Shown here: in pieces, positions 4,064 through 57,694 of the stretch | Layout: every line of letters begins with the position of its first letter | How positions within the stretch are numbered: position 1 is the first letter of the stretch | Origin: Alphaproteobacteria bacterium | Lineage (GTDB): Bacteria > Pseudomonadota > Alphaproteobacteria > RS24 | DNA: 59,955 bases | Assembly: GCA_022426245.1 (NCBI GenBank) | Contig: JAKMDW010000131.1 | Coordinates: forward strand, 1 to 59,955 | Reading direction: 5' to 3' | Notes under the pieces: model-generated | The model's input: only the letters and a program-made list of their open reading frames with translations | What the model was told of the DNA's origin: nothing | Databases searched by the model: none | Made by a program: the position numbers and the translations under genes

Positions 4064-6736
4064 ATGTCAACTGGTCTGGCGGATATCCGCAGCGCATTTC
4101 TGGATTTTTTTGGCGACAGAGACCATGAGCTTGTGGCGTCCAGCCCGCTTGTGCCGCTGAATGACCCGACGCTGCTGTTCACCAATGCCGGCATGGTGCC
4201 GTTTAAAAACTATTTCACGGGTCAGGAAACACCGCCTTATCAGCGCGCAACTTCGTCGCAAAAATGCGTGCGCGCCGGAGGTAAGCATAATGACCTCGAC
4301 AATGTCGGTTACACGGCACGTCACCACACATTTTTTGAAATGCTGGGCAATTTTTCTTTCGGTGATTACTTCAAAGAAGAAGCGATTGACTATGCTTGGA
4401 CGTTTCTGACGAAGGAACTCGACATACCGGCTGATAAATTATTGGCGACAGTTTATGCCGAAGATGAGGAAGCCTTCACGCTTTGGCAAAAAATTGCCGG
4501 ATTACCTGACGAGAAAATCATTCGCATCGCGACCTCGGATAATTTCTGGTCAATGGGTGATACCGGCCCTTGTGGGCCGTGTTCGGAAATCTTTTTCGAT
4601 CATGGCGAGGCGATTGCCGGCGGCCCGCCGGGCAGCCCTGACGAGGATGGCGACCGATTTATTGAGATTTGGAATCTTGTTTTTATGCAATTTGAGCAGC
4701 AGGCCGACGGCACACGCATCGACCTGCCCAAGCCGAGCATTGATACCGGCATGGGGCTGGAGCGCATTGGCGCGTTGTTGCAAGGCAAGCACGATAATTA
4801 TGATACGGACTTAATGTATCACCTGATTGAGGCCTCGGCCGACCATTCGGGGCAGCCGGCGGCGGGGGATTTGGCTGTCAGCCACCGCGTGATTGCTGAC
4901 CATTTGCGTTCCTCGGCGTTTTTGATCGCCGATGGTGTGCTGCCTTCTAATGAGGGGCGCGGTTATGTGTTGCGCCGTATTATGCGCCGCGCGATGCGTC
5001 ACGCGCATATGTTGGGCACCAAAGAACCTTTGCTGTGGCAACTTGTGCCGGCGTTGAAAACGCAAATGGCCGCTGCCTATCCTGAACTTGAACGCGCCAA
5101 TGCGCTGATTGTTGAAACGCTGAAACATGAAGAAGAGCGCTTTCGCGACATGCTGGGGCGTGGCCTAAAATTGCTTGATGATGAGGTTAGCAATTTATCC
5201 GGCGATACGCTGGCCGGTGAGGTCGCCTTTAAGCTTTACGATACATATGGCTTCCCGCTTGATTTGACGCAAGATGCGCTGCGCGAACGCGGCCTGTCGG
5301 TTGATACGAGCGGCTTTGATACGGCGATGGAAAAGCAACGCGCCGAGGCGCGTGCCAATTGGAGCGGCTCGGGCCAGGCAGAAACCGAGGCGGTTTGGTT
5401 TGATTTGCGCAACACGCATGGCGCGACTGAATTTGTCGGATATCAATCAACTGCCGCAGACGGTCAAGTGCTGGCGATTGTCAAAGACGGTGCGCCGGTG
5501 GGTGAGGCAGATAAGGGCGATGAGGTCGCGCTAATGCTTAACCAAACGCCTTTCTATGCTGAGAGCGGTGGGCAGGTGGGTGACACTGGCACGGTTTCAA
5601 ATGAAGATGGGCTGGTGATTGACATTGGCGACACGCAAAAACGCTTGGGCGATGTGCATGTGCTGCACGGCAAAATCAGCAAAGGCAAAATCGCTATTGG
5701 TGATTTGGTGCATCAGCAAATTGACGCGTCGCGCCGCGATGCCATTCGCGCCAATCACTCAGCAACCCATTTGCTGCATGAGGCGCTGCGCCGCGTATTG
5801 GGCGATCATGTGACGCAAAAAGGTTCATTGGTGAATGAGCATCATCTGCGTTTCGACTTTTCCCACCCGCGTGCCATGAATGATGGTGAAATCGATACGG
5901 TGGAGGTTCTGGTCAACCGCATTATCCGTCAAAATGACGAGGTGGCGACACGCCTGATGACACCCGATGAGGCGATTGACGCTGGCGCATTGGCGCTGTT
6001 TGGCGAAAAATACGGCGAGGAAGTGCGGGTGCTTTCCATGGGGCTGGGGGCGCGCGATGAGCGCGCGAGAGATGATGCAACCGCCTATTCGGTTGAACTA
6101 TGTGGCGGCACCCATGTGGGTCGTCTGGGTGATATCGGCCTTTTGAAAATTTCACATGAGGGCGCGGTGGCGTCGGGTGTGCGCCGCATTGAGGCGCGCA
6201 CGGGCGAGGGCGCTTTGGCCCAAATCGCGGCGCATGAACATGTGTTGCACGCGGCGACCAATGAATTGAAAGTGGCCATTGAAGACCTCCCAACGCGCAT
6301 CAGCAAATTGGTCGAGGAACGCAAAATGCTCGACCGCGAATTGAGCGAGACCAAAAAGCAACTGGCATTGGCCGGGGCTTCGGGCGGCGCAGGGGCGTCT
6401 GAGGATGCCAGCCGCGAGGTGAATGGCACATCCTTTATGGCGCGCTGCCTTGATGGGCTGCCCGCCAAACAATTACGCGGATTGGTTGATGACGCCAAGC
6501 AGCAAATCGGCAGCGGTGTGGTGGTGTTTATCGGCATTGATGGCGACAAGGCGGGCATCGCCGTTGGCGTGACTGACGATTTGACCGATAAATATGATGC
6601 GGTGAATTTGGTTCAGGCCGGTTCTCAGGCAATGGGCGGTAAAGGCGGCGGCGGCCGCCCCGACATGGCGCAAGCCGGTGGCCCCGATGTCAATGCGGCG
6701 GATGCTGCGATTGCGGCGATTGAGAAACTGCTTTAG
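4064..6736 (+). CDS. alaS: Alanyl-tRNA synthetase
   Basis: [31 protein letters not shown]..., editing motif [11 protein letters not shown]-terminal [12 protein letters not shown]. Start refined from 3998 to the ATG at 4064. Confidence 0.97.
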
Positions 6737-51820: not shown

Positions 51821-52504
51821 ATGAAACTACTCGGAGCCCCGCTATCTCCTTTTGTGCGCAAGGCGGTTATTGTCGCGGCGGAAAAAAATCTCGATTATGA
51901 ATATGACCCACGCCCCAGCCCGTTGGGCTGGACGGAGGATTTTGAAAAAATAAATCCCCTGAAGCGGATACCGGCTTTGCTGCCTGACCCTGACAATATC
52001 ACTTATGCGATTAATGACAGTTCAGCGATTTGCGCTTATTTCGAAAAGCTGCAACCCGAACCGGCACTATATCCAAGCGATGCAGAAGCCTATGGTCGCG
52101 CTTTGTGGCTGGAAGAGGCGGCCGATACTGACTTGGCCAATAAGATCGGCATGTTGGTTTTCCGTCCTGTCTTCTTTAACTTGGCTGCGGGCAAAGCCGC
52201 TGATATTGACGGTGCCAAAGACGGGTTTGAAAAACTGTCAGAACTATTACTGCCTTATCTTGAAAGCCAAATTGGCGATGCTGACTGGTTTGCCGGCGAC
52301 ATGTTCTCGATTGCCGATATTGCCGTAGCCTCGCAATTAATGAATTTGAATATGGTCGGTTTCGCTGTGCCGGAAGACCGCTTCCCGAATTTGCGCGCCC
52401 ATTATGAACGTTGCATTGAGCGTCCCTCGATTGCCGCTTGCATTGAGGGCAATGAAAAATTCATCAGCAAATCCGGATTTAAAATTGAGCGCGTTATCAG
52501 TTAG
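51821..52504 (+). CDS. Glutathione S-transferase family protein
   Basis: MKLLGAPLSPFVRKAVIVAAEKNLDYEYD..., INPLKRIPALLPDP, INDSSAICAYFEKL. Confidence 0.92.
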   Translation: MKLLGAPLSPFVRKAVIVAAEKNLDYEYDPRPSPLGWTEDFEKINPLKRIPALLPDPDNITYAINDSSAICAYFEKLQPEPALYPSDAEAYGRALWLEEAADTDLANKIGMLVFRPVFFNLAAGKAADIDGAKDGFEKLSELLLPYLESQIGDADWFAGDMFSIADIAVASQLMNLNMVGFAVPEDRFPNLRAHYERCIERPSIAACIEGNEKFISKSGFKIERVIS

Positions 52505-52573: not shown

Positions 52574-54307
52574 ATGTTGCGTTATTCGTCAGTGCTGCGA
52601 TCTAATGCGGTGCGGCATCGTGAGATCAGTTACAATGCACTGACCCCAAAACCGGTGAGCGGAAAAAAAGATAGTCTTAAACCGCAGCGTTTACGTCTCG
52701 GTTTTGAGCAGACAATGGCGCTGCTTATGCCTTATTCAGGCGTGCGCGTGCTGGAGCAAATGAAGGCGGTTATTCCGCTGGCGCTCTATTTGGTGCTGTT
52801 TCAACTTATTATTCTGCGCCAACCCGTCGACGCGGCGCTGCTGCTGGTCGGTGGTTTGTCGGCCGTGATTGTCGGCCTCGCTTTGTTTATGGAGGGGCTT
52901 AATATCGGGCTGATGCCGTTTGGCACGCTGATTGGCGATAAGCTGCCGCGCAAGGCCAGCATGCCCGTCATGTTGTTGATTATTGCCGCATTGGGCGTCG
53001 GGGTGACCTTTGCCGAACCGGCGATTGGCGCATTGCAGGCTTTTGGGGCGTCGGTTGATGTCACCCGCGCGCCATATCTTTATGAGATATTGAACAATTG
53101 GACATTGCCGCTCGTGCTGCTGGTCGGTGCGGGGGTTGGCTTGGCGGCTGTGCTGGGCACATTGCGCTTTGTGAATGGCTGGTCGCTAAAGCCGATGATT
53201 TACATCGCCGTTGGCCTGACCCTGTGCCTCACGCTGGTGGTCTATGCCAATAATGACTTGCGGGCTGTTTTGGGTCTGGCTTGGGATTGCGGGGCGGTGA
53301 CAACCGGTCCGGTAACCGTGCCATTGGTTTTGTCGCTAGGTATCGGCATTGCCAATTCGACGGGTCAAAGCAGCGATAACTCGCTCTCAGGCTTTGGTGT
53401 CGTTACGCTGGCCTCGCTGTTCCCAATCATTGCGGTGCTATTGCTGTCGCTTTATGTCAGCACGCAAATCAGTGCCGAGCAGATTGTCGTCGCGGCGGCC
53501 ACGGCCAGCAGCGCGGGCGAAGTTGTGCAGCAAAGCATGTGGGATGTATCGCCCTTGCAGGAAATTGTGCTGGGCGTGCGCGCGATTGCGCCGCTGGTTT
53601 TGTTCTTGATGTTTGTGCTGTTTATTGTGCTGCGCGAGGGGCTGGCCAATAAGCTGTTCACGGCTTATGGGCTGGTGCTGTCGATTGTCGGCATGTGCGT
53701 GTTTAATATCGGGCTGACTTATGGTCTGGGCGCGATTGGCGCCCAAACCGGTGCTGTTTTGCCGGCCGCCTTTATGGAGGTTTCCATCAGCGATATTTCA
53801 CCGATTTATTCCGCCGCTCTGGGGTTGGTGCTGGTGATTTTATTCGCCTGGTTTATGGGCTTCGGCGCGACACTGGCCGAACCGGCATTGAATGCGCTGG
53901 GTCTCACCGTGCAGAACCTGACCAATGGTGCGTTTAAAAAATCCATGCTGATGTATTCGGTTGCAACCGGTGTGGCTTTCGGCATCGCTTTGGGCATGGC
54001 GAAAATCTTATTTGAGATTGACCTCGCCATGCTGCTGATACCGCTTTATCTCATCGCGCTTGCGCTGACTTATTTCTCAACCGAGGAATTCGTCAATGTG
54101 GCATGGGATAGCGCCGGTGTAACCACCGGGCCGGTTACCGTGCCGCTCGTGCTGGCAATGGGGTTAGGGCTTGGCAATGCGGTCTCAGCCATTGAGGGCT
54201 TTGGTATTTTGAGCATGGCCAGTATCGGGCCGATTATCGCCGTATTGGGTATGGGCCAATATATTCGTTTTAAGCAATCGCGCGCGATTGCTCCTGAGGG
54301 AAATTAA
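52574..54307 (+). CDS. DUF1538 multi-pass membrane protein with two tandem DUF1538 repeats
   Basis: Internal duplication: AWDCGAVTTGPVTVPLVLSLGIGIAN / AWDSAGVTTGPVTVPLVLAMGLGLGN, and GVTFAEPAIGAL / GATLAEPALNAL. Start refined to ATG 52574 with AAGGAGAA upstream. Confidence 0.88.
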   Translation: MLRYSSVLRSNAVRHREISYNALTPKPVSGKKDSLKPQRLRLGFEQTMALLMPYSGVRVLEQMKAVIPLALYLVLFQLIILRQPVDAALLLVGGLSAVIVGLALFMEGLNIGLMPFGTLIGDKLPRKASMPVMLLIIAALGVGVTFAEPAIGALQAFGASVDVTRAPYLYEILNNWTLPLVLLVGAGVGLAAVLGTLRFVNGWSLKPMIYIAVGLTLCLTLVVYANNDLRAVLGLAWDCGAVTTGPVTVPLVLSLGIGIANSTGQSSDNSLSGFGVVTLASLFPIIAVLLLSLYVSTQISAEQIVVAAATASSAGEVVQQSMWDVSPLQEIVLGVRAIAPLVLFLMFVLFIVLREGLANKLFTAYGLVLSIVGMCVFNIGLTYGLGAIGAQTGAVLPAAFMEVSISDISPIYSAALGLVLVILFAWFMGFGATLAEPALNALGLTVQNLTNGAFKKSMLMYSVATGVAFGIALGMAKILFEIDLAMLLIPLYLIALALTYFSTEEFVNVAWDSAGVTTGPVTVPLVLAMGLGLGNAVSAIEGFGILSMASIGPIIAVLGMGQYIRFKQSRAIAPEGN

Positions 54308-54317
54308 AGGAGGCATC

Positions 54318-54764
54318 ATGTCCGACAGACAGATTACCTATCTCACCGACGCTTTGATTATCACCTGCATTGTGCAGGCCAGTCATGCTGATGATGTTGT
54401 GAAAGCGGCGCAAAATGTGGGCGCACAAGGTGCGACGGTCACTTATGCGCGTGGCACAGGCGTGCGCGAACGCATGGGGCTGATGGGCGTGACCATTGAT
54501 GAACAAAAAGAAATGGTGCGCATCATTGTCTCGCAAGAGCAATCGGACCGTGTCTTTGAAGCCATGTATCTGGCTGGCGAGCTTGATAAGCCGGGCATGG
54601 GCATCATGTTCATGAATAAGCTGGACCGTATCGCCACTTATATTCCAGATGAAGTTTTGGCCGAAGCTTCTGCGCCTAAAGCGAAAGCAAAAGCGAAAGC
54701 AAAGGCGGCGCCCAAAAAACGCAAAACGGCGACCCGTCGCCCTGCTAAGAAGGTCGGCAAATGA
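54318..54764 (+). CDS. P-II family signalling protein with basic Lys/Ala-rich C-terminal tail
   Basis: VVKAAQNVGAQGATVTYARGTGVRER...MVRIIVSQEQSDRVFEAMYLAGELDKPGMGIMFMNKLDR, then APKAKAKAKAKAAPKKRKTATRRPAKKVGK. Start refined to ATG 54318 after AAAGGAGG. Confidence 0.82.
   Translation: MSDRQITYLTDALIITCIVQASHADDVVKAAQNVGAQGATVTYARGTGVRERMGLMGVTIDEQKEMVRIIVSQEQSDRVFEAMYLAGELDKPGMGIMFMNKLDRIATYIPDEVLAEASAPKAKAKAKAKAAPKKRKTATRRPAKKVGK
54678..54701 (+). repeat. 12-bp tandem repeat (AAAGCGAAAGCA x2) encoding the K-A-K-A tail of the PII protein
   Basis: Two exact consecutive copies read directly, followed by a partial copy. Confidence 0.85.
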
Positions 54765-55137: not shown

Positions 55138-56565
55138 TTGTTTGTGACCGAAAGCGTGACTGAAATTGAAACCGATTATCTGATTGTTGGCGCCGGTGCG
55201 ATGGGCATGGCGTTTGCCGATACCTTATTGAGCGAGAGCGACGCGGATATGGTGATTGTTGATCGCCATGCCAAGCCGGGCGGCCACTGGAATGTGGCCT
55301 ATCCGTTTGTGCGGCTGCACCAACCATCTTCTTTCTTTGGTGTTGCCTCACGCGAATTGAGCCGTTTCGAAAAAGACAAGATTGGCCTTAATAAAGGCCT
55401 GTTCGACCTCGCATCGGGCGCAGAAGTGAACGCCTATTTTGACGATGTGATGAACCAGACCTTGTTGCCCAGCGGGCGGGTGCGTTATTTCCCGATGAGC
55501 GATTATAAAGGCGGCGGCGTGTTCACCTCAATGACCGGCGGGCAGGAAACAAGGGTGCGTTACAAGAAGCTGGTCGATGCCACGCGTCTGACGGTTGATG
55601 TGCCATCAGAGCATATACCGGCCTTCACCATTGCCGAGGGTGTGCATTTTATGCCGCTCAATGATTTGCCAATGCTGAAAGCGCCGCCGCAAGGTTATGT
55701 GGTTATCGGTTCGGGCAAAACCGGCATGGATGCATGCCTATGGCTTTTGCAGACCGGCGTTGAACCTGATGCCATTCGTTGGATTATGCCCCGCGATGCG
55801 TGGATGCTGCCGCGCGAATTTGCACAGAATGCCGATGAGTTTTTCACCGATGTATTCGGAAATCAGGCCAATCAATTTGAGGCGCTGGCGGCGGCTGAGA
55901 ATATTGACGATATGTATGACAGGTTGGAGAGAGCCGGTTGCGTTGTGCGTTTCGATACTGATATTCGCCCGACCATGTTCCATGCGGCAACGATTAGCCG
56001 TCCGGAATTGGCGGCACTGCGCCGTATCAAGCAGGTTATTCGCATGGGGCGCGTGCAAGCGTTGGAATGCGATAAAATTATCCTCGATGAGGGCGAGCTG
56101 GAGACCGGCCCTGATATTGTGCATGTCGATTGCTCGGCCAGCCTGTCGCGCACCATGCCGCAAATGTCGCCCATGCCGGTTTTTGATGGCAATGTGATTA
56201 CGCCGCAAACAACCCGCAGTTTTATGCCGGTTTTTAGCGGGTCGATGATTGCCTATGTCGATGTGCATTATGAAGATGAAGCGGAAAAAAACCGTATCTG
56301 CAATGTTGTGCCGCTACCCAATAAGGCCGAAGATTTTGTGCCGATGACGCTGGTGGCGATGATGAACCAATTTAATTGGTCGCAAGACAAACCGTTACGT
56401 CAATGGATACGCGCCAACCGCCTCGATGGCTTTACCAAGCTGACCAGCGGCGTTGACCCTGATGATAAAGAAAAAATGGATATTTTATTGCGTATGCGAG
56501 ACAATGCGCCAAAGGCGGTTGGCAATTTAATCAAGCTGGCCGAAACAATCGACACTTCTGCCTGA
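55138..56565 (+). CDS. FAD/NAD(P)-binding oxidoreductase (flavin monooxygenase-like)
   Basis: ETDYLIVGAGAMGMAFADTLLSESDADMVIVDRHAKPGGHWNVAYPFVRLHQPSSFFGVASREL; second nucleotide-binding motif VIGSGKTGMDA. Start TTG 55138 or GTG 55144. Confidence 0.85.
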   Translation: MFVTESVTEIETDYLIVGAGAMGMAFADTLLSESDADMVIVDRHAKPGGHWNVAYPFVRLHQPSSFFGVASRELSRFEKDKIGLNKGLFDLASGAEVNAYFDDVMNQTLLPSGRVRYFPMSDYKGGGVFTSMTGGQETRVRYKKLVDATRLTVDVPSEHIPAFTIAEGVHFMPLNDLPMLKAPPQGYVVIGSGKTGMDACLWLLQTGVEPDAIRWIMPRDAWMLPREFAQNADEFFTDVFGNQANQFEALAAAENIDDMYDRLERAGCVVRFDTDIRPTMFHAATISRPELAALRRIKQVIRMGRVQALECDKIILDEGELETGPDIVHVDCSASLSRTMPQMSPMPVFDGNVITPQTTRSFMPVFSGSMIAYVDVHYEDEAEKNRICNVVPLPNKAEDFVPMTLVAMMNQFNWSQDKPLRQWIRANRLDGFTKLTSGVDPDDKEKMDILLRMRDNAPKAVGNLIKLAETIDTSA

Positions 56566-56575
56566 GGAGGGGCCC

Positions 56576-57694
56576 ATGGCCGAATTTCAAACCCATAAAA
56601 ACGATATAACAAAAAACCGTCTGGTTGATGTCGGCAATCGCGCCGAAGATTTCACACTGGGCGCGGGCGAAGTGCTGGCCAAGATTGAGCGTTTTTCTTT
56701 CACCGCCAATAATGTGACCTATGGCGCAGTGGGCGAACAAATCGGTTATTGGGAATTCTTCCCGCCGCATTTGGCGGTTGATGATGCCGCCGATGATAAA
56801 TGGGGCATTGTGCCGGTTTGGGGGTTTGCTGAAATTGTTGCATCGAACAATACGGACATTCAAATCGGCGAGCGCAGCTATGGCTATTTCCCGCTGGCGG
56901 ATTTTGTGAAAATGCTGCCGACGCGGGTGACTGATGAGCGTTTTGTCGATGGCGCCCCGCACCGCAGCGAACTTCCGGCTGTTTATAACAGCTATGACCG
57001 CCTCGGCGCGGATAGTGGCAATGCGACAAATGATAATCTGCGCGCGCTGTTGAACCCGCTTTACGGCACATCCTTTTGCTTGGTGGACGCCTTGCAGGAA
57101 GAGGCATTTCACCATGCCGAGCAGGTGGTGATTTTATCCGCTTCGTCGAAAACCGCTATCGGCTTGGCCTTTGGTCTGTCCCTTATCGAGGGCGATCGTC
57201 CGGCGATTATCGGGCTTACCTCGCCGGGCAATATCGGCTTTGTTGAGAAGGTCGGCAGCTATGACGAGGTTATCGGTTATGATGGCTTGGAAGCGCTTCC
57301 CAATAAGCCTTCTGTGCTGGTTGATATGTCCGGCAATCGTGCCGTTATCGGCGCTTTGCATGGCGCGTTGGGCGATAATATGCGCTGGTGTCACAATGTC
57401 GGCCTCACGCATTGGGATGATAGCGAGACTAAAAATGACCCGGCCGCCGCGCAGCTTATTCAAGAGCGTAGCGCCATGTTCTTCGCCCCCGGCCATATTG
57501 CGCGGCGCGCCAAAGAGTGGGGTGCGACGACATTCAACCAGAAAGTTGCCGAATTTCTGGCCGAAGGCATGGCCCATGCCGATGGCTGGATGCAGGTGCA
57601 TGAGACCAAAGGTTTGTCGCAATTCGGGCCGATTTACGACCGCGTGGTGAAGGGCGATATGCGCCCCGAAGAAGGCATTATCATCACGCCCTGA
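56576..57694 (+). CDS. DUF2855 family protein (MDR-like)
   Basis: VLAKIERFSFTANNVTYGAVGEQIGYWEFFPPH...WGIVPVWGFAEIVASNNTDIQIGERSYGYFPLA. Confidence 0.88.
   Translation: MAEFQTHKNDITKNRLVDVGNRAEDFTLGAGEVLAKIERFSFTANNVTYGAVGEQIGYWEFFPPHLAVDDAADDKWGIVPVWGFAEIVASNNTDIQIGERSYGYFPLADFVKMLPTRVTDERFVDGAPHRSELPAVYNSYDRLGADSGNATNDNLRALLNPLYGTSFCLVDALQEEAFHHAEQVVILSASSKTAIGLAFGLSLIEGDRPAIIGLTSPGNIGFVEKVGSYDEVIGYDGLEALPNKPSVLVDMSGNRAVIGALHGALGDNMRWCHNVGLTHWDDSETKNDPAAAQLIQERSAMFFAPGHIARRAKEWGATTFNQKVAEFLAEGMAHADGWMQVHETKGLSQFGPIYDRVVKGDMRPEEGIIITP

Follow-up and report, generated by a model that had tools for sequence, protein, structure and literature searches.

PII proteins are best known as sensors of nitrogen and carbon. 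Among the transporter-associated PII-like proteins, SbtB carries a C-terminal appendage reported to be a short redox-sensitive loop (PMC10991534). On the transporter side, umpAB of Halomonas zhaodongensis alone conferred Na+(Li+,K+)/H+ antiport on E. coli KNabc; umpB is the last ORF of the cloned fragment, and PII goes unmentioned in the paper (PMC5484666). Our search of a collection of mainly open-access papers retrieved no paper linking DUF1538/UmpAB with PII and no description of a Lys-rich PII tail.

Here we analyzed a PII-family gene (P1) on a 59,955-nt alphaproteobacterial contig (the window). An initial annotation, made from the sequence alone, had described P1 as a PII-like protein with a histone H1-like Lys/Ala tail adjoining a DUF1538 protein, and had suggested that the tail may tether a metabolic sensor to DNA, RNA or membrane phospholipid.

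Results

Organization and conservation of the locus

P1 is flanked by a gene for a fused UmpA-UmpB membrane protein and a second PII-like gene, P2 (Table 1). The annotated DUF1538 identity of the upstream neighbour held: the Pfam profile matched the fused antiporter homologue in two stretches (E 2.4e-103). NCBIfam UmpA matched residues 60-293 (E 1.7e-62) and NCBIfam UmpB residues 335-570 (E 7.3e-48), so that the protein comprises two DUF1538 domains, UmpA-like followed by UmpB-like. The scores of 210.8 and 163.2 bits fall below the respective equivalog cut-offs of 490 and 500, and antiport activity of the fused homologue is therefore not assured. Sequence searches of the PDB detected no DUF1538 structure.

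Table 1. Features of the P1 locus (window coordinates).
Feature	Position	Strand	Remarks
Fused UmpA-UmpB / DUF1538 membrane protein, putative PII target	52574..54307	+	Pfam DUF1538, NCBIfam UmpA/UmpB
P1, PII-family protein, 148 aa, basic C-terminal tail	54318..54764	+	
T-loop equivalent of P1, about ARGTGVRERMGLMGVTIDEQ	54447..54506 (approximate limits)	+	Without uridylylation Tyr; strongly conserved among P1 orthologues
P1 tail, basic, predicted disordered, residues 115-148	54660..54761	+	14 K/R, 1 D/E; pLDDT about 40; net +13
Tandem repeat AAAGCGAAAGCA, 12 bp, 2.5 copies (TRF), coding KAKA run	54678..54707	+	Length differs among relatives
Tail block KKRKTATRRP	54714..54743	+	Invariant in 7/7 subclade genomes; 8/10 codons synonymously variable
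P2, second PII-fold protein, 95 aa	54761..55048	+	ATGA overlap with P1 stop codon

P2 had no significant Pfam match. Its AF2 model (pLDDT 80.6) displays the order beta-alpha-beta-beta-alpha-beta, and the top Foldseek matches of this model were PII proteins (E about 1e-4). Translational coupling of P1 and P2 via the 4-bp ATGA overlap, which is present in all ten tailed loci with a complete P2 and in the tail-less sister, is probable, and the two proteins may form a mixed complex.

The order DUF1538 - P1 - P2 is kept in the tailed genus, in its sister genus and in SAR116-type loci. A PII-like ORF also adjoins 29 of the 30 DUF1538 loci examined in other families of the phylum; these 30 were the best-scoring loci and not a random draw. 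Moreover, in named records of Bacillota and Alphaproteobacteria a ‘P-II family nitrogen regulator’ immediately follows DUF1538: in Paraclostridium, Vescimonas and Peptoclostridium the P-II protein after DUF1538 has about 222-224 aa, and in Methylocystis and Chelativorans P-II comes after two DUF1538 genes. Such linkage speaks for a regulator of PII type that acts on the antiporter, and the conserved neighbourhood suggests that P1 is this regulator.

Several variations of this arrangement were observed. The PII proteins downstream of DUF1538 in Bacillota are about twice the usual length (L148 3623-4291, Paraclostridium; L149 4042-4716; L152 3099-3767); the P-II match in L148 covers just the C-terminal half, and a divergent PII-like domain may make up the N-terminal half. 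In locus L053 the gene after the P1 orthologue (5361-6101) encodes 247 aa that include another two P1-like stretches, so that a single DUF1538 gene is accompanied by three PII-like domains. Within the tailed genus the conserved neighbours also include a GST-family protein upstream (window 51821-52504) and, downstream, a flavin-binding oxidoreductase (55144-56565) and a DUF2855 protein (56576-57694), none of which was found in the SAR116-type loci.

P1 is predicted to be a non-canonical PII protein

The PII-like core of P1 was recovered both by profile and by fold. Pfam P-II (PF00543) matched residues 15-105 (E 1e-10) with 42.3 bits, above the cut-off of 25. The AF2 model is of moderate confidence (mean pLDDT 65.7), with most of the core at 70-88 and the tail at about 40. 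By Foldseek this model is closest to PII proteins (E 1.4e-6); its best VIA match was GlnZ 4co3 (Z 12.2, rmsd 3.2, 96 aligned), and PDB entry 9p1x, labelled P-II, was among the matches. As modelled, the P1 core thus has the PII (double beta-alpha-beta) fold.

The initial annotation had seen no T-loop uridylylation Tyr context, and both the GlnK alignment and the P1 family alignment bear this out: the equivalent of GlnK Tyr51 is absent, and GVRERMGLMGV stands in P1 where GlnK has the Tyr context. GlnK GDGK aligns with GMGI of P1 (K90 to I), GlnK R101 with T107, which is invariant in the P1 family, and, when the alignment is extended, GlnK R103 with I109. Thus, all three ATP-phosphate ligands of GlnK are replaced, and the equivalents of Q39 and K58 are kept (Q37, K64). 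Since the uridylylation Tyr is absent and the ATP ligands are replaced, P1 is, judged by its sequence, a non-canonical PII protein and not GlnB/GlnK. A canonical P-II (GlnB) gene is present elsewhere in the same genome, and congeners encode a textbook P-II protein with YRGAEY/GDGKIF/IRIRTGE. Because K90, R101 and R103 are replaced, the role of ‘metabolic sensor’ that had been assigned to P1 is unproven. Compensation for the lost ATP ligands by the tail is unlikely, as tail-less relatives carry the same replacement.

Basicity and distribution of the C-terminal tail

Translation of 54318-54764 agreed with the annotated Lys/Ala-rich end (APKAKAKAKAKAAPKKRKTATRRPAKKVGK; composition of the final 34 residues in Table 1). 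The exact 12-bp repeat AAAGCGAAAGCA was located, as annotated, in two copies at 54678-54701 within the tail-coding part, and TRF widened it further. C-terminal 30-mers were ranked by basicity in a sample made up of the window and 400 kb of its congener G010, which together gave 425 non-overlapping ORFs of 90 aa or longer; the P1 tails of the window and of the congener were the two most basic, followed by trigger factor. The basicity of the P1 tail is beyond chance within this sample, which rules out basic C-termini as a proteome-wide trait of the 425 ORFs, though trigger factor has a similar style.

Wherever P1 was detectable in the genus, namely in 11 genomes, the tail is present in frame and comprises 24-41 aa with a net charge of +9 to +16; in one further congener (77% complete) no P1 was detectable. 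The P1 of the sister genus (L041 = G018) ends in AQRSEREGGDTL without a tail, and the SAR116-type, gammaproteobacterial, Gemmatimonadetes-labelled and other P1 orthologues stop after about 118-130 aa, their tail charge being at most +4. In a tree of the antiporter and the P1 core the tailed members lie on one side of one branch (77/77; 78% of bootstraps). A single gain of the tail is the simplest reading of these sequences, not a firm one given the modest branch support.

The tail-less sister also has the ATGA overlap. This rules out both readthrough of an old stop codon into P2 as the origin of the tail and a need for the tail in P1/P2 translational coupling, and places the insertion or expansion that gave rise to the tail ahead of the stop codon. 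The same operon holds tail-less P1 orthologues; the tail is therefore dispensable for core function.

Selection on the tail

In subclade A (7 genomes), which includes the window, pN/pS was 0.05 for the core and 0.23 for the tail, and in subclade B (4 genomes) 0.05 and 0.33, respectively; these ratios are rough, since synonymous sites approach saturation and parts of the tail align ambiguously. Low-complexity alignment can also push pN/pS down, a bias from which the ungapped KKRKTATRRP block is free. This block is identical in all seven subclade-A genomes although 8 of its 10 codons vary synonymously. The repeat part is freer, its units being AK in subclade A and PAKK in subclade B, and the charge of the tail is maintained in the genus while length and repeats change. 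Codon-level comparison thus indicates that the tail is real and under purifying selection; together with its reading frame in 11 genomes, this rules out a sequencing frameshift or MAG artefact.

The same data bear on the idea that the tail stems mainly from lineage-biased 12-bp slippage (AK/PAKK), with weak selection for solubility or charge and no specific partner. Different 12-bp repeats were indeed expanded in each subclade, tail length varies, and K/A/P tails recur in the family, trigger factor being an example. However, the low pN/pS of the tail despite high synonymous divergence, the invariant block and the retention of charge in 11/11 genomes speak against this origin, which we consider unlikely.

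The H1-like composition is shared with trigger factor

A long tail of Lys/Ala/Pro repeats occurs on trigger factor in four or more genera of the family (L069 7437-8951; L123-L145; G000:C54:5311-6822), and the only HC2 (H1-like) match, weak and below the cut-off, was to the trigger factor of the congener tested. P1 had no H1-like (HC1/HC2) Pfam match at E 0.01. Trigger factor is a ribosome-associated chaperone and is not known to associate with DNA. Similar K/A/P tails on this protein therefore mean that an ‘H1-like’ composition is no pointer to DNA, and that the ‘histone H1-like’ appearance is a trait of the lineage.

A nucleic-acid-binding tail resembling H1 or HU extensions, which would anchor a PII sensor to the nucleoid or to RNA/ribosomes, would fit the K/A/P composition, the HC2-like similarity of the trigger factor tail in the same lineage and the invariant KKRKTATRRP block. 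Nevertheless, P1 has no DNA-binding domain, its operon partner is a membrane protein, and the similar tail of the family sits on a chaperone of the ribosome; we consider this anchoring improbable. Of the tether proposed initially, the basic tail, found here to be conserved, and the DUF1538 neighbour stood, with a context favouring a membrane target. DNA or the nucleoid as its anchor gained no specific support, given the similar tails of trigger factor.

Charge of possible tail partners

Both ends of the antiporter are basic in the tailed genus, slightly so at the C-terminus (+1 to +4) and more at the N-terminus (+5 to +9); an acidic docking partner was found at neither. The DUF1538 protein of the tail-less sister (L041) ends in the acidic stretch GSDSEAEVEASLEGAH. 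Contact of the tail with protein, be it acidic cytoplasmic loops of the antiporter, P2 or an adjacent subunit with its acidic PII core, in order to tune assembly of the complex is the least probable alternative: the P1 core is negative in the tailed genus (net -4 to -5), P2 is mostly negative and the two are encoded with a co-translated overlap, but P2 ranges from -7 to +1 and shows no greater acidity in the tailed genus than in the other loci, and an acidic antiporter C-terminus occurs only in the tail-less sister.

Discussion

We tentatively propose that P1 is a PII regulator of the UmpAB antiporter and that its tail is a genus-specific tether, most likely to the anionic membrane. P1, probably together with P2, would regulate the UmpAB (DUF1538) cation/proton antiporter encoded upstream. 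If GlnK-AmtB and other transporter-PII pairs are taken as a guide, it might dock via the T-loop at the cytoplasmic side of the antiporter and control its gating through a ligand. In one genus P1 has gained the disordered, highly charged tail; if P1 forms a trimer, three tails would create a strong polycationic patch. Such a patch could tether P1 electrostatically to the inner membrane as the presumed polyanion beside the antiporter and raise its local concentration, and ionic strength could switch this tethering.

The membrane is favoured as the anchor because the presumed target lies in it and the antiporter has no acidic terminus in the tailed genus. The non-acidic termini mildly favour lipid or another polyanion as the partner of the tail, and the second PII-like gene together with the UmpAB-PII linkage across phyla favours a membrane target. 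As UmpAB performs antiport in E. coli without PII, the PII protein is suggested to be a modulator and not an essential subunit. A rather doubtful extension of this model is that a widespread and so far undescribed class of paired PII-like proteins controls DUF1538/UmpAB and thereby couples Na+/K+/H+ homeostasis to a metabolic or nucleotide signal; in one marine genus the selected tail would make this control sensitive to ionic strength or surface charge at the membrane.

A consistent pairing of PII with UmpAB/DUF1538 would bring the homeostasis of alkali cations and pH within the reach of PII control, in a concrete two- or three-gene system that is open to testing. The tail offers a clean case of a recently gained and selected disordered polybasic extension of a small regulator, with tail-less orthologues as natural controls. 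The PII-UmpAB pairing, undescribed in the open-access literature searched, probably matters more than the tail.

Compared with the two-component UmpAB of H. zhaodongensis, the upstream gene here is a fusion of UmpA-like and UmpB-like DUF1538 domains into a single polypeptide, which scores below the equivalog cut-offs and is linked to PII. With HC1/HC2 and HU-extension tails the P1 tail shares Lys/Ala/Pro-rich basic repeats, but it sits on a PII domain and the protein matches no H1-like Pfam profile. P1 and GlnK/GlnB, the partners of AmtB, have in common the PII fold, the nature of a small regulator encoded beside a transporter and the equivalents of Q39 and K58. P1 differs from them by an identity of only about 20-27%, by the lack of Tyr51 and the replacement of K90, R101 and R103, by linkage to DUF1538 instead of Amt, by a second PII-like partner and by the basic C-terminal tail. 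SbtB and other transporter-associated PII-like proteins share with P1 the link to a transporter and, in the SbtB type, a functional C-terminal appendage; in P1 this appendage is a long disordered basic tail and not, as reported for SbtB, a short redox-sensitive loop.
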